From Novosphingobium sp. FSW06-99 (GTDB lineage Bacteria > Pseudomonadota > Alphaproteobacteria > Sphingomonadales > Sphingomonadaceae): 64,000 nucleotides of DNA. This document shows positions 31,535 to 58,666 of the stretch, piece by piece (position 1 is the stretch's first letter; the number at the start of each line of letters is the position of its first letter). The position numbers and the translations under genes are program-made. The stretch covers positions 62,001 to 126,000 of the forward strand of contig NZ_KQ954261.1 of NCBI RefSeq assembly GCF_001519065.1. Reading direction: 5' to 3'. Under the pieces are notes generated by a model. It worked only from the letters and a program-made list of their open reading frames with translations. It did not search any database and was not told the DNA's origin.

Positions 31535-32508
31535 TTCGGGCCTCCGCGTCCCAGCAGCAGTCGGGCGATCGCGATCGTGACGAACGTGATCATGAACAGC
31601 ACCATGCCCAGCGCGATCAGCGCAGAGATGTGCATGTCGCCGGTCGCTTCGGTGAATTCATTGGCGATCGTCGAGGAAATGGTCGATCCCGAATCGAACA
31701 GGCTGCCCGGGAAATTGTGCGAATTGCCGATGATGAAGGTCACCGCCATGGTTTCGCCCAGCGCGCGCCCTAGCCCGAGCATGACCGCGCCGATCGCGCT
31801 GCGCCGGACATAGGGCAGCATGATGCGCATCACCACTTCGCGCGGGGTGCAGCCCAGGCCATAGGCCGCCTCGCGCATGTGCGAGGGCACGCTCATCAGC
31901 AGTTCGCGCAGGATCGCGGCGATATAGGGCAGGATCATCACCGCCAGGATCAGCGATGCGGTAAAGATGTTGGCGCCGTTGGGCACGCCGCTGACCACTT
32001 TTTCCAGCCACGAACCCGGCGTGACCCAGGTCATCAGCGGGATCTGCACGTTCTGCGCAAACCATGGCGCCAGCACGAACAGGCCCCACATGCCATAGAC
32101 GATCGAGGGAATGCCGGCGAGCAGTTCGACCGCGATGGCCAGCGACCTGGCGATCCGTTGCGGGCAGATTTCAACCAGGAACACCGCCACGCCTACCGCC
32201 ACCGGCAAGGCGAAGACCAGCGCGAGGAACGCGGTGATCAACGTGCCGACGATCGGTGCCGCGGCGCCATACTGGTCGGCCACCGGGTCCCAGGTGCTGG
32301 TGGTGAAAAAGCTGAAACCGAAATGGCTCAGTGCCAGCCAACCGCCCGACAGCAGCGACCCGACCAGCCCGATCAGGGTGGCCATCATCGCCAGGACGGC
32401 CGTCAGGCACAGCGTACGGAACAGCCAGTCGTTGCGGGGGGCACGCGGATGGCCCTGCGCGTCACTGACGCGCAGGGCTTCGTTGGCCACAGTCGGGGAA
32501 CTGGACAT
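31531..32508 (-). CDS. pstC: Phosphate ABC transporter permease PstC
   Basis: 325-residue inner-membrane permease with about six membrane helices. The EAA loop reads MREAAYGLGCTPREVVMRIM, and a PstC-typical ALGETMAVTFIIGN segment follows. Partner of PstA. Its start overlaps the pstS stop by one base (TGATG). Confidence 0.96.
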   Translation of the reverse strand: MSSSPTVANEALRVSDAQGHPRAPRNDWLFRTLCLTAVLAMMATLIGLVGSLLSGGWLALSHFGFSFFTTSTWDPVADQYGAAAPIVGTLITAFLALVFALPVAVGVAVFLVEICPQRIARSLAIAVELLAGIPSIVYGMWGLFVLAPWFAQNVQIPLMTWVTPGSWLEKVVSGVPNGANIFTASLILAVMILPYIAAILRELLMSVPSHMREAAYGLGCTPREVVMRIMLPYVRRSAIGAVMLGLGRALGETMAVTFIIGNSHNFPGSLFDSGSTISSTIANEFTEATGDMHISALIALGMVLFMITFVTIAIARLLLGRGGPK

Positions 32509-33545
32509 CAGTGACCGTTATAGACCGGACGACCGCCAGCCTTCACTTCGTTCGCCCACTGGCGACGGATCAGATCCTTCACCGGGCCGGGCAGCGGCAC
32601 ATAGTCGAGGCTGCTCGCGGTGCGGTCGCCGGTTTTGTAGGCCCAGTCGAAGAACCGCAGCACGGCGGCGGTGCGCGCCGGATTTTCCGGGTTGCGCGGC
32701 ACCAGGATGAACGTCGCGCCGCTGATCGGCCAGGCGTTGCGCGCGGGCTGATCGATCAACATGACATAGTTGCCGGGCACTTTGCCCCAGGGCGCGCTGG
32801 CCGCTGCTGCGGCAAAGGCGCCACCGTTGGGCTGCGGAAACTGGCCGGCCGCGTTCTGCACCAGCGTGTAGGTCACCTTGTCCTTGCGCGAATAGATGTA
32901 TTCGACATAGCCGATCGCGCCGGGGGTCTGCTTGACGAAGGCGGCGACGCCATCGTTGCCCTTGCCGCCCAGGCCGGTCTTCCAGTTGACCGAATCGTTG
33001 GCGCCGACTGTGTTGGCCCAGGCCTGGCTCTTGTGCGACAGGAAGCTGGTGAAGATGAACGTTGTGCCCGAACCGTCGGAGCGGTGCACGACGGTGACCG
33101 GCAGGCCGGGCAGGCGCAGGCCGGGGTTGATCCGGGTGATCTGGCCATCGTTCCAGCGGGTGATGCGGCCAAGGTACATGTTGGCGATGATATCACCGGT
33201 CAGGTGCAACTGGCCGGGCGCGATGCCGGGCAGGTTGACGATCGGCACGATGCCGCCGACCACGGTGGGGAACTGGCTCAACCCGTTGCGGTTGAGTTCT
33301 TCCAGTTTCAGCGGCTTGTCGGTGGCGCCGAAATCGACCGTCTTGGCTTCGATCTGGCGAATCCCGCCGCCCGAACCGATCGCCTGATAGTTCAGTTCGT
33401 TACCCGTTGCGCCGTGATAAGCCTGGGCCCAGGCGGTGTAGACCGGGGCGGGAAAGGTTGCGCCAGCGCCAGTAAAATTATCCGCATGGGCAACGCCTGT
33501 CAGCGCTGCGGCAAAGCCTGCGCCGACAATGAATTTCTTGAGCAT
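32508..33545 (-). CDS. pstS: Periplasmic phosphate-binding protein PstS
   Basis: 345-residue high-affinity phosphate-binding protein. A signal peptide ends in VAHA (about residue 21), then the PstS signature GAGATFPAPVYTAWA, the phosphate-contact segments GSGGGIRQIEAKTVDFGATD and RSDGSGTTFIFTSFL, and a typical C-terminus. It lacks a lipobox, so it is a soluble periplasmic protein that delivers phosphate to PstCA. First gene of the operon, about 80 bp downstream of a Pho box. Confidence 0.96.
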   Translation of the reverse strand: MLKKFIVGAGFAAALTGVAHADNFTGAGATFPAPVYTAWAQAYHGATGNELNYQAIGSGGGIRQIEAKTVDFGATDKPLKLEELNRNGLSQFPTVVGGIVPIVNLPGIAPGQLHLTGDIIANMYLGRITRWNDGQITRINPGLRLPGLPVTVVHRSDGSGTTFIFTSFLSHKSQAWANTVGANDSVNWKTGLGGKGNDGVAAFVKQTPGAIGYVEYIYSRKDKVTYTLVQNAAGQFPQPNGGAFAAAAASAPWGKVPGNYVMLIDQPARNAWPISGATFILVPRNPENPARTAAVLRFFDWAYKTGDRTASSLDYVPLPGPVKDLIRRQWANEVKAGGRPVYNGH

Positions 33546-33876: not shown

Positions 33877-34860
33877 ATGCTCGCAATGAGGGGCATTCAC
33901 CACATATGCATCGCGGGAGCGATGGCCACTGGACTGGCACTGGGGCATCCGGCGTGGGCAACCGGCACGCTGGCGGGGACGCTTATCCAGAATTCCGCTA
34001 TCGTGACCTTCAACATCGGCGCAGGTACGATCACGCAGCGATCGAACACCAATGTGGTGAAGGTCGATCAGGTGATCGGTGTGGCGGTGACGCCGCTGGT
34101 CACGGCGTCGGTGCCGGTCGGGGCATCCCCGGCAACGTTAACATATCAGGTTACCAACACCGGCAATGGCGCCGACAGCTTCGACCTGACCGGCGCGCCG
34201 GCAGTAACCGGCAACGCGTTCACCACCACGCTGCAAACCGTGGCGATCGATAGCAATGGCAACGGCATCTATGACGCCGGTGTCGACACGGTCATCACCA
34301 ACGGAGCCGCCAGCCAGGTGATCGCGCCCGATGCGACGATCAAGGTGTTTCTGATCGTGGCGGCACCGGCATCGGCCACCGACGGACAAACCTCGCAGGT
34401 GCGGCTGACCGCGACATCGGCGACAGGATCTGGAACGCCGGGCACGCTGTTTGCAGGCAAAGGCGTGGGCGGCGTCGATGCCCTGGTCGGTCTGTCGGGC
34501 GGTACCGGGAACGCGCTGGAAACGGTCCAGGCCAGCGTGGCGCAAGTCGCGCTGACCAAATCGGCGACGATCGTCGATCCTTATGGCGGGGGCACCGCCG
34601 TGTCGGGATCGGTGGTCACGTACAGTATCGTTGCCCACACCTCCGGGTCGGGCACGGCCGCCGGACTGACCGTGACCGACGCCTTTCCCACGGGCACGAC
34701 TTATCAGCCGGGCACCATGACGCTGAACGGCACGGGCCTGACCGATGCCGCCGACGCGGATGCAGGCACGGCATCCGCCACCGGAATTACCGTGCTGCTC
34801 GGCAATGTCGCCGGCGGCAGCGCCGACAAGACCGTCACGTTTCAAGTCAAGATCAATTGA
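33877..34860 (+). CDS. Secreted DUF11-domain protein
   Basis: 327-residue exported protein of unknown function. A signal peptide ends at HPAWA (about residue 28). Just after it is the segment GTLIQNSAIVTF, then a Thr/Ser-rich beta module at about 65-220 with a Ca-like NGNGIYDAGVDT loop. A C-terminal DUF11 repeat (about 225-327) begins VALTKSATIVDP, with TVTDAFPTGTTYQPGT, and ends the protein with TFQVKIN. It contains no cysteine-rich or catalytic motif. First gene of a same-strand row of four DUF11-related genes, so probably a surface or matrix subunit. The ATG at 33886 is an alternative start. Confidence 0.75.
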   Translation: MLAMRGIHHICIAGAMATGLALGHPAWATGTLAGTLIQNSAIVTFNIGAGTITQRSNTNVVKVDQVIGVAVTPLVTASVPVGASPATLTYQVTNTGNGADSFDLTGAPAVTGNAFTTTLQTVAIDSNGNGIYDAGVDTVITNGAASQVIAPDATIKVFLIVAAPASATDGQTSQVRLTATSATGSGTPGTLFAGKGVGGVDALVGLSGGTGNALETVQASVAQVALTKSATIVDPYGGGTAVSGSVVTYSIVAHTSGSGTAAGLTVTDAFPTGTTYQPGTMTLNGTGLTDAADADAGTASATGITVLLGNVAGGSADKTVTFQVKIN

Positions 34861-34871
34861 GGGGTTTCGCC

Positions 34872-35372
34872 ATGACTATGATCAATTTCAAGGGTATGCT
34901 CAAGATTGGAGTGGTTTCGCTGGCCGCTCTGTGCGTGTCCGCACCGGCCCTGGCCGCCAATGATCCGTTGACCCTGGTCAGCAAGCAGTTGCTCGACAAA
35001 GTCACCACCGTCGACGGCAAAGTCACGCACCAGATTGTCGATCCGTCGGTCACCCATGACAAAGTGGTGCCCGGAAGCCACATCGTGGTGGTGCTGGAAT
35101 ACCACAACAATCTGGCCCAGCCGATCAGCAATTTCGAATACAAGGATCCGCTGCCCGCACCGTTGATGCTGTCCGACGACAGCGCCGGTGAATTCGACGT
35201 TTCGGTCGATGGCGGCAAGACCTTTGGCAAATTGTCCAACCTGGTCGTCACCGATGCCAAGGGCGCCACGCGCGCGGCCGAGGCGGGTGATGTGACCACG
35301 GTGAAACTGGTCATCCCGCAGATCGCGCCGGGCGCATCGGGGAAAATCGAATTTCACGCCACTGTGCGTTGA
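34872..35372 (+). CDS. Small secreted DUF11-like protein
   Basis: 166-residue exported protein. A signal peptide ends in APALA (about residue 28). The mature chain is one immunoglobulin-like beta domain resembling a single DUF11 repeat: HIVVVLEYHNNLAQPISNFE, YKDPLPAPL, then GASGKIEFHATVR at the end. It begins 11 nt after the preceding DUF11 gene, with GAGGGGTT as ribosome site, so the two are in one operon. The function is unknown; a periplasmic chaperone-like or structural subunit of the surface assembly is possible. Confidence 0.75.
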   Translation: MTMINFKGMLKIGVVSLAALCVSAPALAANDPLTLVSKQLLDKVTTVDGKVTHQIVDPSVTHDKVVPGSHIVVVLEYHNNLAQPISNFEYKDPLPAPLMLSDDSAGEFDVSVDGGKTFGKLSNLVVTDAKGATRAAEAGDVTTVKLVIPQIAPGASGKIEFHATVR

Positions 35373-35507
35373 AATGCCTGAATAATAACAAAAAAATCTT
35401 GGTGTAGCAGGAGTTTGAAGCAACCCGAGGCTCGCGGGGCGGGGAGACGGGCCTGATTTTGCGGACCTGAATACTTTCACACACGAATTTCACATTGGGG
35501 AAATACC

Positions 35508-36608
35508 ATGAAACACGTCAGCAAGTTGCTGGGCGCGGCGGGTACGGCTGCGCTCTTGAGTCTGGTTGCCAATCCGGCCTATGCGGCCGGTACGGCGGCG
35601 GGCACCACCATCACCAACACGGCCACCGTCAATTTCCAGGTGAGCGGTGTTACGCAGACCGCGGCGAGCGCGGCCAACGCGATCATCGTCGATGCCAAGA
35701 TCGTGCTGACCGCGACCGAAACCGGCGCGACCACCACGGTTGCGCCGGGTCAGACCGGTGCAGTCACCACCTTTCAGGTGACCAACTCGTCGAACGAGGT
35801 CATCGACATCGGTCTGGCCGCGGCGGCCCAGGCAACCGGCGCCACCACCGCGCACAGCGGCACCGACAGCGTGACTGCGACCACGTTCACCTATTGGGTC
35901 AACACCAATGGCAGTGCAACGTGCAGCTACAGCGCGGCGAATGCGACCCAGGTCACCTGGCTCGACGAAGTGCCGGTCGGCACCACCGAATGCCTTTATG
36001 TCCAGGCCAACATCCCTTCGACGGCCAGCAACGCGCAAGTCGCGGGTATCAATCTGACCGCAACGGCGGAACAGGGCGGCACCTCCGGTTCGCAAGGCAG
36101 CGTGCTGACGCAATCGGGTTCGGGCGTGGCATGGACGCCGGGCACGATGCAGACGGTGTTTGCCGATGCGGCGGGCAACGGCGGCGACGCCAATTATGAC
36201 GGCAAATTCACCGCGCTGGCCGATTACACGGTGTCCGCGCCGGTGCTGTCGGTCAACAAGAACAGCCTGGTCGTGTCTGACCCGATCGAAGGCAGCAGCA
36301 ACCCCAAGGCGATTCCCGGCGCAACGCTGCAATATTGCATCGTGGTTGCCAATGCATCGTCGGCGGGCACTTCGGCCACCAACATCAGCATCAGCGACAT
36401 TCTGCCGACCACGGTTACCTACAAGGCCAGCTCTGTCGTGCTGAACGCGGTGGTGTCGGGTTCGGGCAATGCGGCAACCTGCGGTTCGGGTACGGCAGGT
36501 AACGATACGGTCAACTATTCGTCCTCGACCGGAACCGTGACCGGTACGCTGGCAACCCTGGCCCCCGGCGCGTCCGAAGGACTGTCGTTCCAGGCGACGA
36601 TCAACTGA
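35508..36608 (+). CDS. Secreted DUF11-domain protein
   Basis: 366-residue exported protein. A signal peptide ends in NPAYA (about residue 26), followed by GTAAGTTITNTATVNFQ, the same post-signal segment seen in its neighbours. The middle is Thr/Ser/Ala-rich beta structure with two cysteines (CSYS, TECLY). The C-terminal DUF11 repeat carries SDPIEGSSNPKAIPGA, nearly identical to the convergent 622-residue protein, and the chain ends LSFQATIN. A good GGGGAAA site precedes ATG 35508; the 135-nt gap before it may hold its own promoter. Likely a structural surface protein; no enzymatic motif. Confidence 0.75.
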   Translation: MKHVSKLLGAAGTAALLSLVANPAYAAGTAAGTTITNTATVNFQVSGVTQTAASAANAIIVDAKIVLTATETGATTTVAPGQTGAVTTFQVTNSSNEVIDIGLAAAAQATGATTAHSGTDSVTATTFTYWVNTNGSATCSYSAANATQVTWLDEVPVGTTECLYVQANIPSTASNAQVAGINLTATAEQGGTSGSQGSVLTQSGSGVAWTPGTMQTVFADAAGNGGDANYDGKFTALADYTVSAPVLSVNKNSLVVSDPIEGSSNPKAIPGATLQYCIVVANASSAGTSATNISISDILPTTVTYKASSVVLNAVVSGSGNAATCGSGTAGNDTVNYSSSTGTVTGTLATLAPGASEGLSFQATIN

Positions 36609-36666
36609 GGCGGATGGCGCGGCGATGGCCTCCAACAGGGCCCCGCCGCGCCTTCGCAGGTGTGCA

Positions 36667-39600
36667 ATGACGCGACACCCCACCTTTTTGCGGGCGGTGG
36701 TGACCGGTCTGTTGTGTCTGCTGGCGCTGTTCACGGCGCCAGCCGTCACCGCGCAGACGATCACCAACATTGCCACGGCGAACTGGCAACAGGCGGGCCA
36801 GGTCGTGACGGCACAGTCGAACGCGGTCTCGTTCACGCGGACCGCAGCGACCGCGTCGATCACGACTTATGCGGTCGGTACCGGTACGTCGACAACGCTG
36901 AGTTTCGTCCCCTCGCAATGCGGTGGGGCGCCGATTGCCGTGTCCGGCAATCCTGCCTCGGCCAGCCAGATCGCCTCGGTGGCGCAGACCACCACGGTGC
37001 AGATCGGCAGCGTGTTCTATTTTGAAGTCTACGCGCCGCAGGGCAATACCAATCCCAATGTCGTCGAATCGATCCAGGTCATGCTGTCGACCAATGGCGG
37101 CGACAAGGAAACGCTGACCGTTTTCGAAACGGGACCCAACACCGGCATCTTCATCGGTGCCATTCCCACTGCCGCAGTGCCGCCGCAGCCCGTCCAGGGC
37201 GATTGCAAGCTGAGCGTCGCGGCGGGGAACACCATTTCCATCGCGGCAATGCTGTCGGGATCGGCCACGCCGATCGCCATTGCCGAACTTTCGGTTGCCA
37301 ACGATCCCTTCGGCTTTGTGTTCGACAGCGAAAGCGGCGCGTCGATCGATGGCGCGACCGTCACGCTGGTCAATGCCACCACCGGTGTTGCGGCCAGCGT
37401 GCTGGCGCCCGACGGCGTGACCAGTTGGCCTGCCACGGTGGTCACCGGCCAGGCCGTGACCGACGGTGCAGGCGTGTCGTTCCAGCTTGCGCCGGGTGAA
37501 TACCTGTTTCCGCTGGTGCCACCGGGGCAATATCGGCTGAAAATCACGCCGCCTGCGCCTTATACCGCGCCTTCTGCGGTATCGGCGCAGAATCTGGCGG
37601 GCATCCTGCGCCCCGATGGGACGCCGGTGCAGATCAGCGCGGGGTCCTATGGCGCCATCTTCACGGTCAGCGGCACTGTGCCATTGCGCGTCGACGTGCC
37701 GGTGGACAAGCCGGGAACAGCCGCCACAATAACCAAATCGGCTAGTAGAGCGACCGCCCAAGAGGGTGATGTGGTGTTTTACACGCTGACTGTTGGCAAT
37801 CCCGAGGCCAATATCAAGCGCGCCGTGACGGTGGTCGACAAACCCGCCAAACAATTGCGCATCCGGCCGCAATCGGTGCGTATCGATGGCGCATCGCAGC
37901 CTTCCGAAGTGCAGTTTGCCCCGGATGGACGGGTCATGACGGTCAATCTGGGGGCAATGGCCGCCGGGGCTACGCATGTCATCACGTATGCCGCGACAGT
38001 CAACGAAAATGCCACGCCGGGGCAGGCGCCCAACACCGCAACGGTTACAGATTCGCTTGGGCTGACATCCTCTACCCATGCCGTGGTACAGATTGTCGCC
38101 GACATGCTGACCGATCGCATGACGCTGATCGGGCGGGTCACCGATGGCGGCTGTTCGTCGACCGGGCTGCGCATGGGCCTTGCCGGTGTGCGCGTGATGC
38201 TCGAAGATGGCAGCTATGCGGTGACCGACAAGGACGGGCGGTATCACTTCGATGGCCTGGTGCCGGGCGATCACGTCGCGCAAGTGGCACCCACGACGCT
38301 GCCCGAGGGCGGCGCCTTTGTCGATTGCGCCCGTTCCACGCGCACCGCGGGCAGCGCCATTTCGCGGTTTGTGTCGGGCCAGGGCGGCATGCTGACGGTG
38401 GCCGATTTCTATGCCACGGTGCCGCAGGGCGCGGCCAAGGCAGCGAGGCTGGCCGCAACCGGGGGCAAGTCCGCCGAGCCCAAAATCAGCGACAAGACCG
38501 CCTCTGGCGCGGATGTCGACTGGCTGGCGATGGGGGACGGGCCCACCCAGTTCCTGTTCCCGGCGGTCGATCACAATCCGCGCTCGCCCTCGGTGCGCGT
38601 GGTGATCCGTCACCGTTACGGGCAAAAGGTCGAATTGTCGGCCAATGGCCAGCCGGTTGCCAAAGTGGCGTTCGACAGCACCAGGATCACCGCCGATCAC
38701 ACCTACGCGGTGTCGATTTGGAGCGGCATTCCGCTGGAGGGCAATGCCACGCATCTGGTTGCGGTGGTGCGCAATGCCGACCGTTCGGTGGCCGCCACGT
38801 TGACCCGCGATGTCTATTTCACCAATGTCGCCGCGCAAGTGCGGCTGGTGCCCGAACAGACGCACCTGGTTGCCGATGCCAGCACCCGGCCGATCCTGGC
38901 GCTGCGCATTCTCGACAGCAACGGTCGCCCGGTGCATCGCGGCATGGCGGGCGATATCGGGATTTCCGCGCCGTATGAAAGCGCCGAAGTGATCAATGCC
39001 CTGCAGCAACGTTCGCTGTCGGGGCAGGGCCGGGCCACGCCGCACTGGACCGTCGAAGGCGACGACGGCATGGCCTATGTCGAGCTGGCGCCGACCATGG
39101 TCAGCGGCGCGGTCCATTTCGATTTCACCTTTGATGACGGCGGGCCCAAGCGGCACCAGACCATCGACACCTGGGTCGTGCCGGGCAATCTGCCGTGGAC
39201 GCTGGTGGGCCTGGCCGAAGGCGCGCTGGGCGCGCAGACCATCGCCGACCGGATGGAACGGGCGAGCACGTTCGAAAGCGATCTGGGCACGCATGCGCGC
39301 ACCGCGTTCTATGCCAAGGGGCGCGTGCTGGGCAAATATCTGCTGACACTGGCCTATGACAGCGCCAAGCAGTCCGCCGACCAGACCCTGACCGGGGCGA
39401 TCAACCCCAACAGCTATTACACCGTGTTTGCCGACGGATCGAACCGCCGGTTCGACGCCGCCAGCCGGTCAAAGCTCTATGTGCGGATCGAGGCCAAGGG
39501 CTTTTCGGCCATGTTCGGCGATTTCCAGACCGGGCTGTCGCAAACCAATCTGGCACGGTATCAACGCACGCTGACCGGCGTGGCGGCCGAGGCCAGCATT

Positions 39601-41868
39601 GGTAATCTGCATCTCAAGGGCTTTGGCGCGAAAACCGCCACCACCCATCGCCATCTGGAAATCCAGGGCGCCGGGGTGACCGGGCCCTACAGCCTGGGCA
39701 CCGTGGCAATGGTGGCCGACAGCGAAACGATCACCATCCAGGTGCGCGACCGGTTCCAGTCGGATGTCGTGGTGTCGACCACCACGCTGACCCGCTTTGT
39801 CGATTATTCCATCGACGTGCTGTCGGGGACGGTCACGTTCAAACAGCCGGTGCTCAGCCATGATTCGAACATGGACCCCGAATTCGTCATCATTGATTTC
39901 GATGTTGATCCGGCCCTGGGCGCGCAGGCCAATGCGCTGGTCGGCGGGGGCCGGATCGAATGGGCCACGAACGGCGGCCATGTAAAGATCGGCATGACCG
40001 GGGTCAGTGATGTCGGCACCAACCAGACCGATCCGACCGCACGGACCAATCTGGGCGCGCTCGATGCCAAAGTCGATCTCGACGCCGCAACCACCTTGCG
40101 CGGCGAATTGGGGGCCAGCCGTGCCCTTGGCGTGACGTCCGACGCCTGGCAGGTAGAGGCCGAACATCACGGCAAGGCTTACGACATGCTGGCCTATGTC
40201 CGTTCGACCGACGCGGCCTATGGCCTGGGCAATGTCGGCAATGCCGAACTCGGCTGGCGCAAATATGGCCTCGATGCCAAGCTGCACATCACCAGGCAGT
40301 TTTCTTTTGTGACCAGCGCGTGGCTCGAAAACAGCCTGACCGACACGTCGAGCCGCAAGGCGCTGCAAGTGAAGGCGCAGTACAAGCTGGGCAAGACCGA
40401 TTTCCACGTGGGGATCAACGCGATCGAGGACGATCTGGCGGGTGTGCAGACTACCACGACCACCACCACGACAACCGCGACAGGCACCTCCAGCACCAGT
40501 TCGACCACCAGCACCGGCGCGACCAGTGGCACATCGACCGTGGTCGAGGCAGGGGTCAGCCGCAAGTTCCTGAACGACAAGCTGCAGATCGATGCCACCG
40601 TCAGCCACGCCATCGGTGCGGCGGGATCGATCGACATGCCCGCCAACGACAGCCTGACCGCGCGCTATACGATCAACCCGAAGGTCAAGCTGGTGGCGAG
40701 CTATGACGTGGCCAATGGCCAGTCGCTCGATACCCACACCGCGCGGGTGGGGTTCGAGCTGCAACCGTGGAAAGGCGCCAAGCTGAGCGGCGGCGTGGGC
40801 GATCAGGATGTGGTCGAATATGGCGAGCGCAGCTTTGCCGCGTTCGGGCTGACGCAGTCGGTGGGGCTGGCAAAGCATCTGACGATGGATGCCTCGGTCG
40901 ATGCCAACAAAGTGCTGTCGGGGTTCAACGCGGCACAGATCCTCAATGTTGCGCAGCCGGTGGTCAATGGCGGGCAATTGAACGGCAGCGGCACGCTGAC
41001 CGAGAATTTTACCGCACTGAGCCTGGGGCTGGGCTGGAAACAGAGCCTGTGGTCGGCCACGCTGCGCGGCGAATTCCGCAATGGCGAATTCGCCGACCGG
41101 CGCGGGCTGACCGCCGGGCTGATCCGCCAGTTGGGCGATGGCGAAGTGCTGGGCACCGGACTGACGGTGACCGATTCGAGCGGCACCGATGGCAGTCGTT
41201 CGGCGGTGTTCGACACCTCGATCGCCTATGCCCGGCGGCCCGCGAGCGCCAGCTATGCCTTGCTGACCAAGCTGGAATATCGTGCCGACACGCTGGTGGC
41301 GGCGACATCGACCACCACCACGGTGACCACGGGCGCCAACACCACTACGCTGGCCGCCAGTTCGATCACCGGGGCGGCCGGCACGGCGGGCGATACCGCG
41401 CTGACCAGCGGCAACCAGCGCGCGCGGCGCTTTATCGCCAGCGTTTCGGGCGACTGGAGCCCGCGCGGCGAAAACGACGATGAAGAACTGACCCAGCGCA
41501 GCGAATTGAGCGTGTTCGTGGCGATGCGCTACAATTTCGATGCCTATGACGGGTACAACCTGTCGGGCACAACGCTGCTGGCTGGCGCCGATGCGCGCGT
41601 GGGGATCGGGGCCAAAGTTGAAGTGGGGGTCAGCGGCACAGTGCGTTTGGCGCCGTCGGATGGCACCACCAGTTTTGCCTTCGGGCCCAGCGTGGGGATT
41701 GTTCCGGCCAAGAATGTGCTGGTCAACCTGGGCTACAACGTGTCGGGTTTCCGCGACCCCGACTTTGCCGCCAGCCGCAACACGTCGCGCGGGGTCTATG
41801 TCGTGCTGCGCATGAAGCTCGACACCTCGACGTTCGCGTTCCTCGGCCTCGATGGCCGCGCGCGCTAG
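36667..41868 (+). CDS. Giant surface/outer-membrane protein: DUF11 and SdrD-like modules plus C-terminal barrel-like region
   Basis: 1733 residues. A signal peptide ends in AVTA (about residue 29), then TITNIATANWQQAGQ, the post-signal segment shared with the small DUF11 proteins. Residues about 60-350 are beta-rich, with a carboxypeptidase-regulatory-like domain. A DUF11 repeat follows (about 357-475, ITKSASRATAQEGDVVFYTL), then an SdrD B-like domain (about 490-560, GLAGVRVMLEDGSYAVTDKD). From about 640 on, a second Ig-like region is followed by roughly 800 residues of alternating short strands and charged turns, with Thr-rich loops at about 1260-1290 and 1545-1580, resembling an outer-membrane barrel; the last residues are FLGLDGRAR. 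Start ATG 36667 has AGG upstream. Function unknown: an anchor, scaffold or exporter for the neighbouring proteins is inferred. Confidence 0.7.
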   Translation: MTRHPTFLRAVVTGLLCLLALFTAPAVTAQTITNIATANWQQAGQVVTAQSNAVSFTRTAATASITTYAVGTGTSTTLSFVPSQCGGAPIAVSGNPASASQIASVAQTTTVQIGSVFYFEVYAPQGNTNPNVVESIQVMLSTNGGDKETLTVFETGPNTGIFIGAIPTAAVPPQPVQGDCKLSVAAGNTISIAAMLSGSATPIAIAELSVANDPFGFVFDSESGASIDGATVTLVNATTGVAASVLAPDGVTSWPATVVTGQAVTDGAGVSFQLAPGEYLFPLVPPGQYRLKITPPAPYTAPSAVSAQNLAGILRPDGTPVQISAGSYGAIFTVSGTVPLRVDVPVDKPGTAATITKSASRATAQEGDVVFYTLTVGNPEANIKRAVTVVDKPAKQLRIRPQSVRIDGASQPSEVQFAPDGRVMTVNLGAMAAGATHVITYAATVNENATPGQAPNTATVTDSLGLTSSTHAVVQIVADMLTDRMTLIGRVTDGGCSSTGLRMGLAGVRVMLEDGSYAVTDKDGRYHFDGLVPGDHVAQVAPTTLPEGGAFVDCARSTRTAGSAISRFVSGQGGMLTVADFYATVPQGAAKAARLAATGGKSAEPKISDKTASGADVDWLAMGDGPTQFLFPAVDHNPRSPSVRVVIRHRYGQKVELSANGQPVAKVAFDSTRITADHTYAVSIWSGIPLEGNATHLVAVVRNADRSVAATLTRDVYFTNVAAQVRLVPEQTHLVADASTRPILALRILDSNGRPVHRGMAGDIGISAPYESAEVINALQQRSLSGQGRATPHWTVEGDDGMAYVELAPTMVSGAVHFDFTFDDGGPKRHQTIDTWVVPGNLPWTLVGLAEGALGAQTIADRMERASTFESDLGTHARTAFYAKGRVLGKYLLTLAYDSAKQSADQTLTGAINPNSYYTVFADGSNRRFDAASRSKLYVRIEAKGFSAMFGDFQTGLSQTNLARYQRTLTGVAAEASIGNLHLKGFGAKTATTHRHLEIQGAGVTGPYSLGTVAMVADSETITIQVRDRFQSDVVVSTTTLTRFVDYSIDVLSGTVTFKQPVLSHDSNMDPEFVIIDFDVDPALGAQANALVGGGRIEWATNGGHVKIGMTGVSDVGTNQTDPTARTNLGALDAKVDLDAATTLRGELGASRALGVTSDAWQVEAEHHGKAYDMLAYVRSTDAAYGLGNVGNAELGWRKYGLDAKLHITRQFSFVTSAWLENSLTDTSSRKALQVKAQYKLGKTDFHVGINAIEDDLAGVQTTTTTTTTTATGTSSTSSTTSTGATSGTSTVVEAGVSRKFLNDKLQIDATVSHAIGAAGSIDMPANDSLTARYTINPKVKLVASYDVANGQSLDTHTARVGFELQPWKGAKLSGGVGDQDVVEYGERSFAAFGLTQSVGLAKHLTMDASVDANKVLSGFNAAQILNVAQPVVNGGQLNGSGTLTENFTALSLGLGWKQSLWSATLRGEFRNGEFADRRGLTAGLIRQLGDGEVLGTGLTVTDSSGTDGSRSAVFDTSIAYARRPASASYALLTKLEYRADTLVAATSTTTTVTTGANTTTLAASSITGAAGTAGDTALTSGNQRARRFIASVSGDWSPRGENDDEELTQRSELSVFVAMRYNFDAYDGYNLSGTTLLAGADARVGIGAKVEVGVSGTVRLAPSDGTTSFAFGPSVGIVPAKNVLVNLGYNVSGFRDPDFAASRNTSRGVYVVLRMKLDTSTFAFLGLDGRAR
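40449..40545 (+). repeat. In-frame ACC-type trinucleotide-rich tract (Thr-rich loop)
   Basis: Within the giant surface gene, a run of ACC/ACG/ACA codons encodes mostly threonine, then Ser/Thr/Gly. The loop lies between two predicted barrel strands, and codon-unit changes in it would keep the frame. Confidence 0.55.
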
Positions 41869-41876
41869 TCCCCAAA

Positions 41877-41899
41877 ATCCTCCCCGTGCAGGGGAGGAT
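41877..41899 (-). terminator. REP-like hairpin terminator between convergent surface-protein genes
   Basis: Perfect 9-bp stem ATCCTCCCC / GGGGAGGAT with a 5-nt loop. On the minus strand it is followed by TTTTGGGG and lies 35 nt past the stop of the 622-residue gene. Similar to the hairpin at 28820-28840. Confidence 0.65.
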
Positions 41900-41934
41900 C
41901 GAAAGCGGTCGGGGGTTTCGGCAACCGACGGTCC

Positions 41935-43803
41935 CTAATTGATCTGCGCCTGATAGGTGATCTGGAACGAAGGCGGGGTGCCGGTCGATCCGGCGAACGT
42001 GCCGCGCGGGTTCAGGCAGATATAGCGCACCGCCGCATCATAGGCCGCCACCGGCTTGTAGGTGCAGCCTGCAAACGTGGTGGGCGCGGTGGTGGCATTC
42101 GAATAGGCGATGTTGGTCGATGTGTTGAAGGTCAACGCGCTGGTCGGCGATCCCTGTACGAACGCCGGGTTGGAACTGGTGCCCACGCTGATCTGGCTCG
42201 GCAGCGTGTCGACAATGAATACAGAATTGGCGGTGACTGCGTCCGGGCCGGTGTTGGCGACGGTCAGCGTGTACTGGATGATCGCGCCGGGGATCGATTT
42301 GGGATTGGTGGTGCCGTTGATCGGATCGGACAGCACGGCGGCCGACTTGACGATGGTCAGCGCGGCGTTGGCGGCGACCTTGGTGTTGGTGATCGTGCAC
42401 GTCAGCACATCGCCCAGTGCCGGGGTGACACTGCCGCCTGGCGTGGTCGGCAGCTTGGTGGTCGATGCGCTGTAGCCGTTGGTGCAAGCCAGCGCCGAGG
42501 TATATTGGTCGGTCTGGGTTGTGCCAGCCGGCGTTTCCGACAGTGTGTAGGCGGTGCCTGCGGTGACTTTCTGCAACGCGGTTGCTGCGGCCCCCAGCGT
42601 TGTGCCGGTGCCGGTGGTGGTGGTACTGGCGACCGTCGTGCTGCCCTGCGCAATGGTCATGGTGAATTCGTCGGTGCTGAATTGCCGCCCCCCGGTGCCC
42701 AGCGCCTTTTGCAGCAGGATATGGGGAAAGGGCGTTTCGGTATAGGTGCACAGCAGCGCGTCGCCATAGGCCAGGCTGCCCAAGGCATAGCTGGCAGTGA
42801 TCTTCGCGCTGGGCAATGTGGTGGTGGAACCGGTGTTGCTGTTGGTGCAGGTCAGGCTGCCCTGGTAATCGGCCAGCGTGCCGGTGCTGCCCGATGCCAT
42901 GGTTTCGACCAGAGTCATCGGCACCGACGCGGCGGCGGCCACCCCGGCGGTGGTGAACGGTCCCAGCCCGGTGCCGCTCGACGTGCCCGATGCCAGCACC
43001 GCCGCGTTGGATGTCGCCTCGATCGCATACGTGAACTGGTCGGCGGTGTTGACGCGCGCATCGGTAATCTGGGTGGTCAGGCGCACCGAGGCGAAGCGCA
43101 CCGCCAGCATGAACCCTTCCAGCCCGCCCGATACCAGCGTGGTGGTAACCTGGGTCGGCTTGGCCGATCCGATGATATAGGCGCCGACATTGTCGGTCGA
43201 GGTGCCGGTTTCGGTAACCGTGGTGGTGCCGGTGCCGCTGATCGTGGGATATTCGGTGCCGCTGATCGCACCGGCCTGGTCGAGCGTCGTCCATGCGCTG
43301 CCGTTGGTAACAAAGGTCAGGGTTTCGCCGGTGTTGGTGGATTCGCCATCGGCCAGCGCCATCATGTAATTGGTCACCCCGCTGGCCCCGGCGGGCGGGG
43401 TCAGCGTGATCGATGAAATTGTCACTGTGGTGGTGCCGGCGGCGGTGGCATAGAGCACGGGTTCGCCGGCAATGCCCATCATGGCGGTGTTGCCGATCGC
43501 CGCGCCGTTCCACGAAGGGCTGGTAACCGGGGTCAACGCGGTGCCGCTGGTTTTCAGATTGAACGCCAGCACCGTGCCGTCCTGCAAGGTCAGGCTGAAA
43601 TTCTGCCCGCCCGGCGATGTTGCAGTCGTGTTGTTGTACGATGTAAAATCAACCCAGCAATAGGTCTGCCAGTCGCTGGGCCCGGTGGTGCCTTGCGACG
43701 TTGCACTATAGCAATTGGATGCCATTGCACCCGTGGTCGACAAAGCCCACGCCATTACGATGAGCGCGATCCGGCAAACGATGACCGTTGTTGTTCTGAT
43801 CAT
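41935..43803 (-). CDS. Secreted adhesin-like protein with CshA-like, prealbumin-like and DUF11 modules
   Basis: 622-residue exported protein. A signal peptide ends in GAMA (about residue 25). The mature N-terminus (about 26-200) has NCYSATSQGTTGPSDWQTYC and then WVDF, recalling the non-repetitive ligand-binding domain of CshA-type adhesins (tentative). Two prealbumin/SpaA-like modules follow, each ending in LTCT-type strands (SLTCTNSNTGS; LTCTITNTK). The C-terminal DUF11 repeat has SDPINGTTNPKSIPGA, almost the same as in the 366-residue neighbour, and the chain ends ITYQAQIN. Start ATG 43803 is the first that begins a signal peptide. Convergent with the giant surface gene. Probably surface-exposed or a matrix component; export route unknown. 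Confidence 0.7.
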   Translation of the reverse strand: MIRTTTVIVCRIALIVMAWALSTTGAMASNCYSATSQGTTGPSDWQTYCWVDFTSYNNTTATSPGGQNFSLTLQDGTVLAFNLKTSGTALTPVTSPSWNGAAIGNTAMMGIAGEPVLYATAAGTTTVTISSITLTPPAGASGVTNYMMALADGESTNTGETLTFVTNGSAWTTLDQAGAISGTEYPTISGTGTTTVTETGTSTDNVGAYIIGSAKPTQVTTTLVSGGLEGFMLAVRFASVRLTTQITDARVNTADQFTYAIEATSNAAVLASGTSSGTGLGPFTTAGVAAAASVPMTLVETMASGSTGTLADYQGSLTCTNSNTGSTTTLPSAKITASYALGSLAYGDALLCTYTETPFPHILLQKALGTGGRQFSTDEFTMTIAQGSTTVASTTTTGTGTTLGAAATALQKVTAGTAYTLSETPAGTTQTDQYTSALACTNGYSASTTKLPTTPGGSVTPALGDVLTCTITNTKVAANAALTIVKSAAVLSDPINGTTNPKSIPGAIIQYTLTVANTGPDAVTANSVFIVDTLPSQISVGTSSNPAFVQGSPTSALTFNTSTNIAYSNATTAPTTFAGCTYKPVAAYDAAVRYICLNPRGTFAGSTGTPPSFQITYQAQIN

Positions 43804-46416: not shown

Positions 46417-48807
46417 TCAGAAACGGAGCTTGATCTGCGCCTGATAGCTGGTCGGCGCCTGGAACAGGTACAGCGTCGATGCGCTCGATGAGGGGCCCGA
46501 TTGCGCGGTGATCGGGCGCGTGCCCAGCGGGTTGTTGACCGTCACGCCCACGGTTACGTTGCCGTACGTCCCGCTCGCCGACAGCACTTCATAGCTATAG
46601 GGCGCCAGCCGCACATTGTTGCCGCCGCTGGTCGTGCCTTCGTCGCCCGACGAGGGGCCGTCTTCATACTGGCGACCGGTCAGCTTGTGCAGATAGCTCA
46701 GCTTGAGGTGACCCATGCTGTAGACTGCGCCGAACGTGGCCGTGTAATCGGGGGCATAGGCCAGCCACAGCCCGGTGACCGAATCCTTTGACGACATCAG
46801 CGTGGCGTTGGCGATCGCGGTCAGGCCGGGCACCACGACATAGCTGAGCTGACCTTCTATGCCCTTGTACACCGCCGGATTGGCGTCGAGCGTAACGTTG
46901 TTGCTGTTGGTCGGGTCGACCGCGGTCGAATTCGACGCCTTGATGTAATAGATGTCACCGTCGAAGTTCAGGCGTTGCCCGGCAAACACCACCCCGGCCT
47001 GATAGTTGGTGGTCTTGGTCGGCACCGGATCGACCGGCACATTGACGTTGCCGGCGCCCTTGGTTTCCAGGCTGACCGACAGCGCGGGCACGATGAAGCC
47101 CCGTGCATACTGGGCATAGGCCGAAAATTGCGGCGTGATCAGATAGTTGACGGTGGCATAGGGCAGCACCGGCTTGTAGGTTTCCTGCGCATCGCCGCCG
47201 ATGCGGCTGTGCTGGTCGGCGATCGGCGAATCAACTTCACGCGTGAAGAACAGCGCCTTGAAACCGGGAGTGACGGTCAGTGTGTCATTCAGCGCCTTGA
47301 TTTCATAGTCGCCGAACACTTGTTCCTGGTTCCACTTGGTGCGTTCGTCATAGTTGACATAGGCGGGGACGAGCGACCCGTTCTGTTCGACGTTGTACGA
47401 CTTGTCCTTTTCCAGCCAGTTCCAGTTCTGGCCATCGTTCATGATGTCAAAGTTGAAATTGTAGTTGCTGATCCCGCCGTTGGCCGAACCCTTGGTAAAG
47501 TCGTATTCATAGCGATAGCGGTGTGACTGCGAATGTTCGTACCAGGCACCCAGTTTCAGCACGCCGATCGGAGTCTTGACATCGATTTGCAGGATGTCGC
47601 CCCAGTCGCGGTACTGGTTGACCTTGGTATAGCCGGCGATATCACCCGCCACGACTTTGCCGCCGCTGCCGCCCAGCCCGGTGCCCTGGGCATAGACCTG
47701 TGTGGCCAGCGTCAGGCTGCAGGTGTTGTTCGACGTGTTGATGGTGTTGCACGGGTCGCTCGAATCTTCGGTCGACAGCGTGAAGTTCTTGTAAAAGAAC
47801 GTGTAGAGCTTGTTGTCGATGGTGATGATGCTCGACGGTTCCCACTGCAACCGCGCCACTTCCATATCGGTGGTCTTGTTTTCCCAGTTCCAGTCCTTGC
47901 GCGCGTTGGCATAGTCACCGGGATTGTCGGCGGTGGTTGCGCCGAACTGTTTGCCATAGACCGCGACCTGCGCGGCGGTGGCGCCACCGGCGGCGTCGGA
48001 CTGGTTGAACAGGCTCTGGTTGTAATTGGCCAGGATGCTGAACTGGGCATTGTCGCCCAGCGGCTTGACGATCTTGACATAGCCGTTGCCCCACCAGCCG
48101 GGCTGGTTGGTCAGCGCGCCGTCGGTGCGCTTGTATTCGCCTACCGCGATCACCTTGAGATCGCCCAGCGATTTGATTTCGCCCGAATTGACCGTCAGGC
48201 GTTCGAGGAACGTGTTGAAGCTGCCGTAGAGCGCCTGTTCCTGCAGGCCGAACTCTTTGGTCGGATCGCGCGAGATGATATGGATGTTGCCGCCATAGCT
48301 GGACTGGCCAAGGTCAGTCGCCGCGCCCGGGCCGCGATCGATGATCAGGCGCTCATAAGTGCCGTCGGGGAAATACGAGGTCGAATGGTGCGTCGGATCG
48401 TTCGAATCCTCGAACGGAATACCGTCGAACGTGATGTTGTACTGGCCGTCCTGAAACCCGCGCAGCACGATCTTGGTGTCGCCGAGGCCGACGCCGTTGC
48501 CCGAACTGGGCAGGATCGACGCACCGGGGGTGAACAGCACGATCTGCGAATAGTCGGCGGTCGGCGCGATCGAATCCTCGATGATCGCGCGGCTGACAAT
48601 CGCCTGCGGTTCGAAGGTGTGGATTGATGCGGTGATCGGCGTCGCCTGGTTCACCTTGGTCGCGGTCACGACGATGTCGTCGGAGTTGGTGATCGGCGTG
48701 GTGGTCGCACTGTCGGCTGCGGCATCGGCGGCAAAAGCGGGCAGGGCGCCGCCAAGCGCAAGGATGCCCGCGCTGGCCAGCAGCCAGCAACGCGATTGGA
48801 TGTTCAT
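46417..48807 (-). CDS. TonB-dependent outer-membrane receptor
   Basis: 796-residue TonB-dependent transporter. A signal peptide ends in PAFA (about residue 25), then a TonB box-like DDIVVTATKVNQ, a plug with TKIVLRGFQDGQYNITFDG and RGPGAATDLGQSSYGGNIHI, and a long barrel ending in the classical C-terminal aromatic (QAQIKLRF), which the BAM machinery recognises. ATG 48807 is preceded by AGGGGG at 5 nt. The ligand is unknown; there is no adjacent siderophore or sigma/anti-sigma gene. It is divergent from the cellulose operon across 473 nt. Confidence 0.93.
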   Translation of the reverse strand: MNIQSRCWLLASAGILALGGALPAFAADAAADSATTTPITNSDDIVVTATKVNQATPITASIHTFEPQAIVSRAIIEDSIAPTADYSQIVLFTPGASILPSSGNGVGLGDTKIVLRGFQDGQYNITFDGIPFEDSNDPTHHSTSYFPDGTYERLIIDRGPGAATDLGQSSYGGNIHIISRDPTKEFGLQEQALYGSFNTFLERLTVNSGEIKSLGDLKVIAVGEYKRTDGALTNQPGWWGNGYVKIVKPLGDNAQFSILANYNQSLFNQSDAAGGATAAQVAVYGKQFGATTADNPGDYANARKDWNWENKTTDMEVARLQWEPSSIITIDNKLYTFFYKNFTLSTEDSSDPCNTINTSNNTCSLTLATQVYAQGTGLGGSGGKVVAGDIAGYTKVNQYRDWGDILQIDVKTPIGVLKLGAWYEHSQSHRYRYEYDFTKGSANGGISNYNFNFDIMNDGQNWNWLEKDKSYNVEQNGSLVPAYVNYDERTKWNQEQVFGDYEIKALNDTLTVTPGFKALFFTREVDSPIADQHSRIGGDAQETYKPVLPYATVNYLITPQFSAYAQYARGFIVPALSVSLETKGAGNVNVPVDPVPTKTTNYQAGVVFAGQRLNFDGDIYYIKASNSTAVDPTNSNNVTLDANPAVYKGIEGQLSYVVVPGLTAIANATLMSSKDSVTGLWLAYAPDYTATFGAVYSMGHLKLSYLHKLTGRQYEDGPSSGDEGTTSGGNNVRLAPYSYEVLSASGTYGNVTVGVTVNNPLGTRPITAQSGPSSSASTLYLFQAPTSYQAQIKLRF

Positions 48808-49280
48808 GAAACCCCCTGAAACTGGACTCAGTTGTTGCGTATGCGAGGCGGCGAGTGGCCGCGAATTGTTGCAGCGCATTTACGGTTTGATGACTTGGGT
48901 GTCACAAAGCGTGCGTGTCCGCCGCCAACCCCGCAGAATTGCTGGGATGTTGAAAAAATGAAAAATTTGTATCGCGATTCAGCAAACCTTTGCAGGCGGT
49001 TCTGCCTGCCGGATAGCCAGGTCCGGACGGCAGACCGCCTGCCGCCGTCGGGTTGCACCGCGACAGATCAGGCGCACGCTTAAAAAGAGATGCCCCGCAA
49101 GGTTGTCCCGGCGCGGCTTTCCCCGCGACGGTATTAACCTTCGTGAAGGACCGGGGGCCGATGCTGCACCGCAAGATTTTGCCTCAAAGTGCTAGAAAGC
49201 AAGCGATTTCGGCGAATTGGGCAACGGGATATTAATCATTCCCGGCGACAACTTAAGTAATCTTACGGAAGGTTTTCGTC
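48808..49280. other. Divergent intergenic region between TonB receptor and cellulose operon
   Basis: 473 nt with no convincing gene. It contains one long interrupted hairpin at 48992-49042 (GCAGGCGGT / ACCGCCTGC outer stem, plus inner TGCCGGA/TCCGGA pairing) about 185 nt upstream of the TonB receptor start. I looked for a cobalamin or cyclic-di-GMP riboswitch core and did not find one. Promoters for both directions must lie here but are not clear by eye. Confidence 0.5.
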
Positions 49281-49604
49281 ATGCGCTCGGACGCCGCCAA
49301 TCTGCTCAACAGGCTGGGCCAGAACAACTTCAAATATCAGGAATTCCGCGATAATTTTGCGGATATGGAGCTATGGCCGCTGTTCGAAGCGCTGATCCGT
49401 GACCCGCGCATTGCCGGCGACACGCATGGTGGCGAGGATCATACCGCCCAGTCTGTGGTCGAAGCCTCACCTGCGGCAGCGCCCTCGCGACCGACCGGGC
49501 TGTTCAACCGTTATGAAGAAGCCCCGGTGGCGACGCACAAACCCGACGATGTGCGATCGTTGCTGCGCCAATTGGGCGACCGCGTCCAATCCGGAGATCT
49601 GTAA
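49281..49604 (+). CDS. Cellulose biosynthesis small protein, BcsR-like with an extended tail
   Basis: 107-residue cytoplasmic protein at the head of the cellulose operon. Residues 4-45 (LLNRLGQNNFKYQEF, then MELWPLFEALIRD) match the pattern of BcsR: a short helix, an aromatic Tyr, and WPL near the end. Enterobacterial BcsR is about 62 residues; here a disordered Ala/Pro linker and a C-terminal segment (GLFNRYEEAP, DDVRSLLRQLGDRV) follow, recalling BcsP tails. In E. coli BcsR binds BcsQ and helps assemble the c-di-GMP-controlled secretion complex. The gene overlaps bcsQ by 1 nt. GGAAGG is 8 nt upstream of ATG 49281. Confidence 0.6.
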   Translation: MRSDAANLLNRLGQNNFKYQEFRDNFADMELWPLFEALIRDPRIAGDTHGGEDHTAQSVVEASPAAAPSRPTGLFNRYEEAPVATHKPDDVRSLLRQLGDRVQSGDL

Positions 49605-58202: not shown

Positions 58203-58666
58203 CGCTGGACCTGCTGGCACGGGTGCGCGAACGGGCCAGTGCGCCCGCGCGTGAATTCGGGCTGGCGGTGCTGACCGCGATGACCGCGGCGGAAGTGTTT
58301 GCACAGGCCAGCCCCGAGGCGGCGCGCGGCTTTTACCTGGCGGTGGGGCGGCGCGTGGCCGGGCTGGTCGATCTGGCGCAAGTGCACGATATCGACGCGC
58401 TGGTCGAACGCATAAACGCGTTGTGGTCGTCGTGCGGGTGCGGCCATGCCCGGATCAGCGCGGTCGAAACCGGGCTGAAGATCGTGCACAGCGGGGCGCC
58501 GGTCCTGCTGCTGGGCGATCAGGACCACTATTGGGCGCGGCTGTTTCCGGCCATGATCGAAGGCGCCTATGACGCCTGGTTTCGCGCACTGGGCAGCGGC
58601 CCGGCGCTGTCCACGCGCATTTTGCGCCAGCATGGCGATGTGATCGAGTTGCACCATGGTATCTGA
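58199..58666 (+). CDS. bcsD: Cellulose synthase subunit D (BcsD)
   Basis: 155-residue protein matching the BcsD/AxcesD family: GFYLAVGRRVAGLVDL near the middle and DHYWARLFPAMIEGAYDAW near the end. In Komagataeibacter BcsD forms a ring-shaped octamer that aligns glucan chains into crystalline cellulose. No signal peptide is visible. Overlaps bcsC by 4 nt and bcsZ by 11 nt. Confidence 0.88.
   Translation: MTLDLLARVRERASAPAREFGLAVLTAMTAAEVFAQASPEAARGFYLAVGRRVAGLVDLAQVHDIDALVERINALWSSCGCGHARISAVETGLKIVHSGAPVLLLGDQDHYWARLFPAMIEGAYDAWFRALGSGPALSTRILRQHGDVIELHHGI

Follow-up and report, generated by a model that had tools for sequence, protein, structure and literature searches.

A conserved operon of Sphingomonadales encodes apparently split DUF11 domains that may build a covalently joined surface fibre

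Four genes, designated A, B, C and D, of which D encodes a giant protein, form a conserved operon in Sphingomonadales (hereafter the order). Judged from its gene products, the operon probably serves to assemble a surface fibre out of split DUF11/CLIPPER domains, the subunits of which would be covalently joined. The polymer, the bond within it and its export are inferred from sequence. No description of this operon as a fibre system was found in the literature.

The operon is located in a 64,000-nucleotide stretch of Novosphingobium sp. FSW06-99 (contig NZ_KQ954261.1, positions 62,001 to 126,000), referred to here as the window. A preliminary description of this DNA listed the frames A to E, all of which are present at the positions it gave (Table 1). 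For gene D, an alternative start is possible at 36625. DUF11-type matches were obtained for D with Pfam (PF01345, E 7e-8) and with TIGR04226 (E 5e-11), and for A, C and E with TIGR01451 (E 2e-8 to 8e-7). The match of A to PF01345 (17.5 bits) is under the Pfam cut-off of 24.6, and B gave no DUF11-type match in either library (Pfam and TIGR-type models). The two SpaA_3 stretches of E were identified with Pfam (E 2e-58). A PHROGs search with A, B and C gave no match.

Table 1. Positions of genes, predicted domains and cellulose genes in the window
Feature	Position	Strand	Description
Gene A	33877..34860	+	327 aa; leader and donor hairpin, then an Ig-like domain in the middle and a truncated DUF11 (acceptor) at the C-terminus
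A donor hairpin	33961..34068	+	about residues 29-64; Asn39 in 0.97 of 71
A acceptor domain	34540..34857	+	about residues 222-327, to stop codon; Lys228 in 0.99 and Asp268 in 0.97 of 71
Gene B	about 34872..35372	+	166 aa; one acceptor-like domain, without donor hairpin
Gene C	35508..36608	+	366 aa; same build as A
C donor hairpin	35586..35699	+	about residues 27-64; Asn37 in 1.00 of 74
C acceptor domain	36234..36605	+	about residues 243-366; Lys251 in 1.00 and Asp297 in 0.99 of 74
Gene D	36667..41868	+	1733 aa; donor hairpin and intact DUF11, then other surface modules and a predicted C-terminal barrel
D donor hairpin	36751..36858	+	about residues 29-64; Asn34 in 73/75
D intact DUF11	37714..38100	+	residues 350-478; Lys357, Asp391 and Asn456 each in 75/75
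D CarboxypepD_reg/SdrD_B-like stretch	38173..38286	+	residues 503-540; Pfam, under curated cut-offs
D outer-membrane beta-barrel region (predicted)	39877..41823	+	about residues 1071-1719; AF2 and fold searches
Gene E	41935..43803	-	622 aa; tip-like, two SpaA_3 stretches, acceptor C-terminus, without donor hairpin
E acceptor domain	41938..42318	-	about residues 496-622; extends to stop codon
BcsQ-like	49604-50353		cellulose gene
BcsA-BcsB fusion	50353-54825		cellulose gene
BcsC	54825-58199		cellulose gene
GH8	58656-59675		cellulose gene

In a set of 296 genomes from the order, D has strong matches in 72 and A likewise in 72, with 71 genomes in common; this comparison omits five weak D genomes out of 77 (E 2e-12 to 2e-17) and one weak A genome out of 73 (E 9e-4). 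Loci with flanks were fetched for 60 of the D matches. Fifty-nine of these share the gene order A-B-C-D, all on one strand, and the remaining one had no B match at the threshold of E 1e-8. Order and strand are also kept in all 72 loci from named genomes that include 3.1 kb or more of upstream sequence, a set overlapping with the 60 loci. The flanks of the operon differ among the relatives. Co-conservation, proposed as a check in the preliminary description, thus holds for A to D. The five-gene cluster it described is retained as a four-gene core, whereas E is a variable tip-like gene and not a fifth equal part. Similarly, its three small secreted proteins fall into A and C, which are alike, and B, which differs by the absence of a donor hairpin.

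DUF11, since renamed CLIPPER, is an Ig-like domain in which a Lys-Asn isopeptide bond forms by itself; in the crystal structure of an intact DUF11 the bond links Lys715 and Asn806, with Asp748 close by (PMC12617251). For the present proteins, alignments from 80 loci comprised 71 A, 65 B, 74 C and 75 D sequences, proteins outside the length range being omitted; set A2 consisted of 37 of the 74 D relatives plus the window, and sets A3, which entered no later analysis, and A4 each lacked one relative. The Lys-Asp-Asn triad is complete within one domain in the DUF11 of D. In the C-terminal domains of A and C the full triad is absent: Lys and Asp are there, and the domain stops before the Asn strand. 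The C-termini of A, C and the E-like proteins are DUF11 domains without their last strands that have kept Lys and the catalytic Asp. Against a profile of the D DUF11 (130 positions), the tail match of A stops at a median of position 97 and that of C at 71-73. In A, C and D the mature chain opens with a hairpin similar to the missing strands, Asn included. A donor-hairpin profile, built from these same A, C and D sequences, matched A in 71/71, C in 74/74 and D in 73/75 cases.

The completion of DUF11 by joining two proteins was scored with chimeric sequences X>Y, consisting of the last 115 residues of X followed by the first 48 mature residues of Y. The profile used as reference was made from 27 DUF11 domains from beyond the order, without three DUF11 loci belonging to the window's family. 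With this outside profile the median gains were 8.8 bits for A>A, 13.5 for A>C, 7.9 for C>A, 12.5 for C>C, 6.9 for A>D and 4.8 for C>D, compared to -2.3 to +0.6 bits with shuffled N-termini and -0.4 to +0.6 bits when a different part of the donor protein was used. All 20 shuffles scored below the real join in 67/71 (A>A), 67/69 (A>C), 62/69 (C>A), 72/74 (C>C), 50/67 (A>D) and 43/70 (C>D) cases. Coverage alone says little, since between 593/1420 (A>A) and 765/1480 (C>C) shuffled joins also reached 85% of the model. With the D-DUF11 profile the real join exceeded all shuffles in 54/71 (A>A), 46/69 (A>C), 49/69 (C>A) and 49/74 (C>C) cases, and the donor Asn fell on the Asn456 column in 69/71 A; under this profile the D donor added no more than 2.1 and 1.0 bits and exceeded all shuffles in 1/67 and 5/70 cases. 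The Pfam DUF11 model does not decide split-domain joining: joined A reached 18.4 (A>A), 22.8 (A>C) and 22.9 bits (A>D), with one shuffled join at 21.2 bits; joined E reached 22.9-23.1 bits (19.0 shuffled) with matches ending before the junction, and joined C gave no DUF11 match. A coupling analysis of A and C (229 sequences) placed eight donor-acceptor pairs among the top 100, a chance share being about nine, and thus gave no enrichment.

Split-domain joining between subunits fits the sequence pattern and, with the Pfam and coupling results undecided, is considered likely. By donor-strand complementation, the truncated DUF11 of one subunit would be completed by the hairpin of another; Lys, Asp and Asn would then form an isopeptide bond linking both chains. 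Such a bond between shaft subunits is probable, and because of it the polymer would be covalent without a sortase. The E-like proteins, with an acceptor only, would represent the tip, A and C, with both ends, the shaft, and D, with a donor only, the base in the outer membrane. The subunits carry leaders and should therefore reach the periplasm. The suggestion in the preliminary description that the giant protein anchors, assembles or exports the small ones as a fibre is compatible with this split-DUF11 anatomy. If the model is correct, it would constitute a covalent, sortase-free route to surface fibres in Gram-negative bacteria, assign roles to proteins named only "DUF11 domain-containing", explain the matching halves of one domain at both protein ends and provide natural tag/catcher pairs.

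The AF2 model of D residues 612-1733 (pLDDT 73.6, pTM 0.64) contains about 34 strands of at least eight residues by manual count, and its fold matches are mostly outer-membrane barrels (LptD, PapC, FimD, SlpA, AlgE). Together these support, with moderate confidence, the earlier proposal that the C-terminal half of D is outer-membrane-barrel-like. No match to an autotransporter barrel family was obtained for D with Pfam (E up to 1), and PDB sequence searches with D and with its DUF11 gave no match. A role of D as the base of the fibre is fairly probable; that it is covalently bonded there is put at an even chance. As the operon's sole predicted outer-membrane protein, D might likewise export the subunits, for and against which the balance is equal.

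The AF2 monomer of A reached a pLDDT of 92.2 and a pTM of 0.80. Its fold searches gave generic Ig-like matches (integrins, complement; BcpA pilin at Z 8.7, 4.6 A, 170 residues), which are uninformative on the split, and a PDB sequence search with the A profile gave one weak histidine-kinase match. In B, the donor-hairpin profile found no hairpin in any of 65 sequences. The position of the catalytic Asp is Asn in 62 of 65 B proteins of the order and Asp in the window's own B. It is tentatively proposed that B caps donor hairpins in the periplasm, although this is rather less probable than the roles assigned to D. E itself has matches over more than 400 residues in only 2/60 loci, and a further protein with an E-type C-terminus was found in 35/56 wide-flank loci. 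Lys and Asp are present in all 42 E-like tails, E included, and the donor-hairpin profile matched neither E nor any of 41 E-like proteins.

The same plan recurs in other proteobacteria. A relative of B, a shaft-like subunit and a D-like protein occur together in 12 of 24 loci outside the order, from which L195 (Eleftheria terrae), available as an annotation table only, was excluded. A 13th locus has the same set with a broken subunit gene, and eight of the 24 lack such subunits. Read by eye, Ser takes the place of the donor Asn in 3/16 distant D-like proteins (L246, L247, L254) and in 1/18 distant subunits (L245_9), and Gly does so in one of the 16 D-like proteins (L241); another of the 16, L248, is ambiguous. 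The D-like proteins with a replaced donor Asn would therefore be unable to form the Lys-Asn bond. The catalytic Asp is present in 4/11 distant B relatives.

These replacements bear on the bond itself. The same head-to-tail strand donation might yield a non-covalent fibre, as fold completion stands as a signal separate from the bond, which is also missing in some DUF11 domains (PMC12617251). Against this, 97-100 percent of the A, C and D proteins of the order retain Lys, Asp and the donor Asn, next to the invariant Lys and Asp of the E-like tails, and a non-covalent fibre is considered unlikely. About equally unlikely is that A and C self-close, the hairpin completing the C-terminal DUF11 of its own chain to give an internally cross-linked monomer and no fibre. 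The donor hairpin has a pLDDT of about 95 in the AF2 monomer of A, which is also compatible with self-closure, and self and neighbour are indistinguishable by sequence. However, D keeps a conserved donor beside a complete DUF11 of its own, and an acceptor without a donor is present in the E-like proteins, so both need a partner.

Less probable than either is a role of D as a porin-like barrel or surface adhesin, with A, B and C as secreted accessories that share no more than a common domain with it. DUF11 is widespread in surface proteins (73/299 genomes of the phylum), and distant relatives of the D barrel region are annotated as TonB-dependent receptors; the strict ABCD order and the complementarity of truncation and hairpin argue against this reading and for the split-DUF11 fibre. 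The preliminary description had considered a protein part of a biofilm matrix plausible because of a cellulose operon within 10 kb. The cellulose operon lies about 5.8 kb from E. This link is not borne out, as BcsA-BcsB, BcsC and GH8 were found in 0/140 relatives' loci within the flanks covered, some of which are short, and the matrix reading is very improbable.

Chaperone-usher pili have an N-terminal donor, an incomplete Ig-like C-terminal domain, a donor-less tip and a large outer-membrane barrel. The logic proposed for this operon is the same, and the fold matches of D include the ushers FimD and PapC; the usher, PapD-type chaperone and fimbrial-subunit families had no Pfam match in A to E at E up to 1. 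In Gram-positive bacteria, sortase-built isopeptide pili follow a covalent tip-shaft-base logic with CnaA/CnaB-type domains. In contrast, direct reading of A, C and E shows C-termini that end on a strand without an LPXTG-type sorting signal, and no sortase was found among nine neighbouring frames scanned with Pfam. That the operon represents a separate Gram-negative pilus class, with self-ligating split isopeptide subunits, a giant barrel as exporter and base and B, an acceptor of weakened catalysis, as assembly chaperone, in several proteobacterial lineages, is conceivable, with the balance slightly against it.

T11SS cargo was considered and rejected; the available passages of PMC12282271 are mostly on DUF1194, with one naming DUF11, and those of PMC8343143 and PMC10787603 concern other DUF numbers. 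SpyTag/SpyCatcher shares with the proposed fibre a split isopeptide domain joining two chains, but is engineered, whereas the split here would be natural and serve polymerisation (PMC6539128, PMC5487036). The CLIPPER domains of the Acinetobacter silvestris adhesin resemble the present proteins in domain family and in the Lys-Asp-Asn triad, intact in D; their bond is intramolecular and located in stalk domains, whereas the Asn strands in this operon seem to be on another chain (PMC12617251). The words "donor", "split" and "SpyTag" are absent from the main text of that paper. The archaeal thread of Sulfolobus acidocaldarius, Saci_0406, is likewise a donor-strand fibre with a proposed inter-subunit isopeptide bond, in which the N-terminal amino group of Asp24 is bonded to Asn57 two subunits off; here, the predicted bond runs from Lys to the Asn of a neighbour, and tip-, shaft- and base-like proteins and a predicted outer-membrane barrel are present in addition (PMC9715654).

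All five open frames of the cluster claimed in the preliminary description were present when the frames were read in the window. In searches of curated family libraries, DUF11-type matches were obtained for A, C, D (the 1733-residue giant protein) and the convergent E. D also gave weak CarboxypepD_reg and SdrD_B-like matches, and E two SpaA_3 stretches. B had no match of any of these four types. D itself is the only D match in the window's own genome. Of the two genes flanking the cluster, the TonB-dependent receptor is found in none of 140 relatives' loci within the flanks covered, and the phosphate-binding-type protein in two of 140. A cellulose operon is also located in the window.

Features of the window in and around the DUF11 cluster
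Feature	Position	Strand	Description
PF12849 protein	32508-33545		phosphate-binding-type, flanks cluster
Genes A, B, C, D	33877-41868	+	open frames
Gene B	34872-35372	+	window's own B
Gene E	41935-43803	-	open frame, convergent
TonB-dependent receptor	46417-48879		flanks cluster
Cellulose operon	49604-59675		BcsQ-like protein, BcsA-BcsB fusion (1491 aa), BcsC, GH8 enzyme

The recently solved DUF11 structure (PMC12617251) has a CnaA-like fold in which Lys and Asn are bonded and an Asp lies close by; in CnaA-like folds the bond ties the first strand to the penultimate one. The internal DUF11 domain of D contains the Lys-Asp-Asn triad in all 75 aligned D proteins. In A and C, Lys and Asp are kept and the C-terminal domain (the acceptor) ends ahead of the Asn strand. 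The mature N-termini of A, C and D open with the motif I.N.A.v ... SN.v..V (the donor hairpin), which aligns with the missing DUF11 end. In 69 of 71 A proteins the donor Asn lines up with the Asn456 column, as it does in 70 of 88 aligned C rows, to which some C proteins contribute two rows; 15 of the other C rows are gaps. The outside DUF11 profile comprised 27 domains from other families, none of them from the window's order (Sphingomonadales); some came from genomes with D-like proteins, so the profile's independence extends to the order but not to the entire family. Use of D's own DUF11 profile in the joined-sequence test gave a weaker result than the outside profile. With Pfam's DUF11 model, a shuffled control (21.2 bits) fell among the real joins of A (18.4 to 22.9 bits), and coupling analysis showed no enrichment of donor-acceptor pairs. 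A donor-hairpin profile built from A, C and D matches these proteins by construction, its informative part being absence elsewhere: it was found in none of 65 B proteins, none of 41 further E-like proteins (acceptor-type C-terminus, encoded in relatives' loci) and not in E. Lys and Asp are present in all 42 E-like tails, E counted.

If these ends meet, acceptor-only, two-ended and donor-only parts would give a single linear order, with E-like proteins as the tip, A and C as the shaft and D as the base. We infer isopeptide bond formation between subunits, fibre exit through D and, likewise, the side on which the N-terminus of D lies. From the sequences, the chances that D is joined covalently are evenly balanced, because some distant D-like proteins lack the donor Asn and a covalent link between D and the subunits is thus not general. 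In chaperone-usher pili, a linear order results from acceptor-only, two-ended and donor-only parts; the proposed system would share this tip, shaft and base logic of donor and acceptor ends, but with other proteins. Among the listed titles and abstract openings of open-access papers, bioRxiv preprints aside, no description of a split DUF11 domain or of such a self-joining fibre was found. Should the proposed mechanism hold, the system would be new as a whole, made from the known domain family DUF11; if strand donation alone is real, the novelty would be smaller.

When the corresponding positions of B are assigned by eye, Asn takes the place of the catalytic Asp in 62 of 65 aligned proteins, and Arg that of Lys in 26 of the 65. 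In the window's own B both Lys and Asp are present, and since it has Asp where the 62 have Asn, this protein may not be inactive. Outside the order Asp is kept in four of 11 B relatives, and the role of B as a 'dead acceptor' is therefore a weak proposal there.

The comparison of gene neighbourhoods across Sphingomonadales proposed in the preliminary description bore out co-conservation for A to D. Of the order's 296 genomes, 77 (28 of 79 genera) had a match to D, which was weak in five. Strong matches to D and to A were each found in 72 of the 296 genomes, 71 of which are common to both. The order A, B, C and then D on one strand was found in 59 of 60 loci retrieved with flanks; in the remaining locus, no B match reached E 1e-8. 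A second, named set of 80 loci, overlapping with the first in genomes and including Novosphingobium, Erythrobacter, Sphingopyxis, Qipengyuania, Blastomonas and Sphingorhabdus, had the four genes in order in all 72 loci whose sequence extends 3.1 kb or more upstream of D. The flanks are variable: setting aside A to D and one additional DUF11 protein, no family recurred in more than 21 of 61 loci (window counted). A further protein with an E-like C-terminus was encoded in 35 of 56 loci with wide flanks, where 38 of the 41 E-like proteins found lie downstream of D. DUF11 repeats also occur in an 11302-aa open frame (L203, G025:C1:2196778-2198292) in a genome of the window's family. The 1.16 Mb plasmid pTHN of Novosphingobium sp. 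THN1 (L196, NZ_CP028348.1), typed conjugative, encodes a D of almost full length (43.5% identical, with 94% coverage).

An AF2 model of D residues 612-1733, calculated from 38 input sequences, had a mean pLDDT of 73.6 and a pTM of 0.64 (A: pLDDT 92.2, pTM 0.80), with about 34 strands of at least eight residues across residues 1071-1719 by our own count. The top Foldseek rows were mostly outer-membrane barrels (SlpA, LptD, PapC, FimD, SprA) with query TM-scores of about 0.2 or less, and human ApoB100 was within the first three rows. VIA-align gave Z 13.7 with VDAC (9.8 A, 256 residues), 12.5 with FimD (9.6 A, 345 residues) and 12.4 with PapC (6.3 A, 309 residues). By class, the C-terminal half of D is a predicted barrel; the fold matches are no proof of an usher.

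Beyond the order, the C-terminal half of D was matched in 10 of 385 genomes of the class, two of which are the genome of the window itself and another from its family. At E 1e-10, a wider D profile had matches in 58 of 398 phylum genomes, a count that includes members of the window's family. In twelve of 24 loci examined outside the order (L187, L188, L239-L242, L245-L249, L254), a B relative and a D-like protein occur alongside at least one subunit that begins with a donor-like N-terminus and ends in a truncated DUF11, the B matches ranging from E 3e-31 down to a weak 4e-5 (L242). Plasmid p4 of Acinetobacter haemolyticus (L194, CP085288.1, 5483-18990) carries an operon of this kind, with B, D, a tip-like protein and a broken subunit gene, the latter split into several annotated pieces. 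L243 and L244 contain D plus a subunit truncated by the start of the contig, and in L252 D lies at the contig start. No donor/truncated-DUF11 subunits were found in the other eight loci (L189-L193, L250, L251, L253), of which L190 is a short contig.

Outside the order, Asp is kept in all 19 subunit tails reached by the profile (21 examined; Lys lies mostly outside the match), and the internal DUF11 of all 16 D-like proteins has Lys, Asp and Asn. An eight-row D alignment (five of the window's family, two other alphaproteobacteria and Acinetobacter) has Asn34, Ala36, Asn52, Lys357, Asp391 and Asn456 invariant. Inspection of the N-termini by eye shows the donor Asn in 17 of the 18 subunits whose start is readable and in 11 of the 16 D-like proteins; among the latter, it is replaced by Ser in L246, L247 and L254 and by Gly in L241, and L248 is ambiguous. 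The subunits adjoining the three Ser-containing D-like proteins retain the donor Asn. L250, L251 and L253 have a different layout, in which a DUF11 protein, in two cases of about 3000 aa or larger, precedes a barrel encoded as a protein of its own (1086-1206 aa) and small subunits are lacking.
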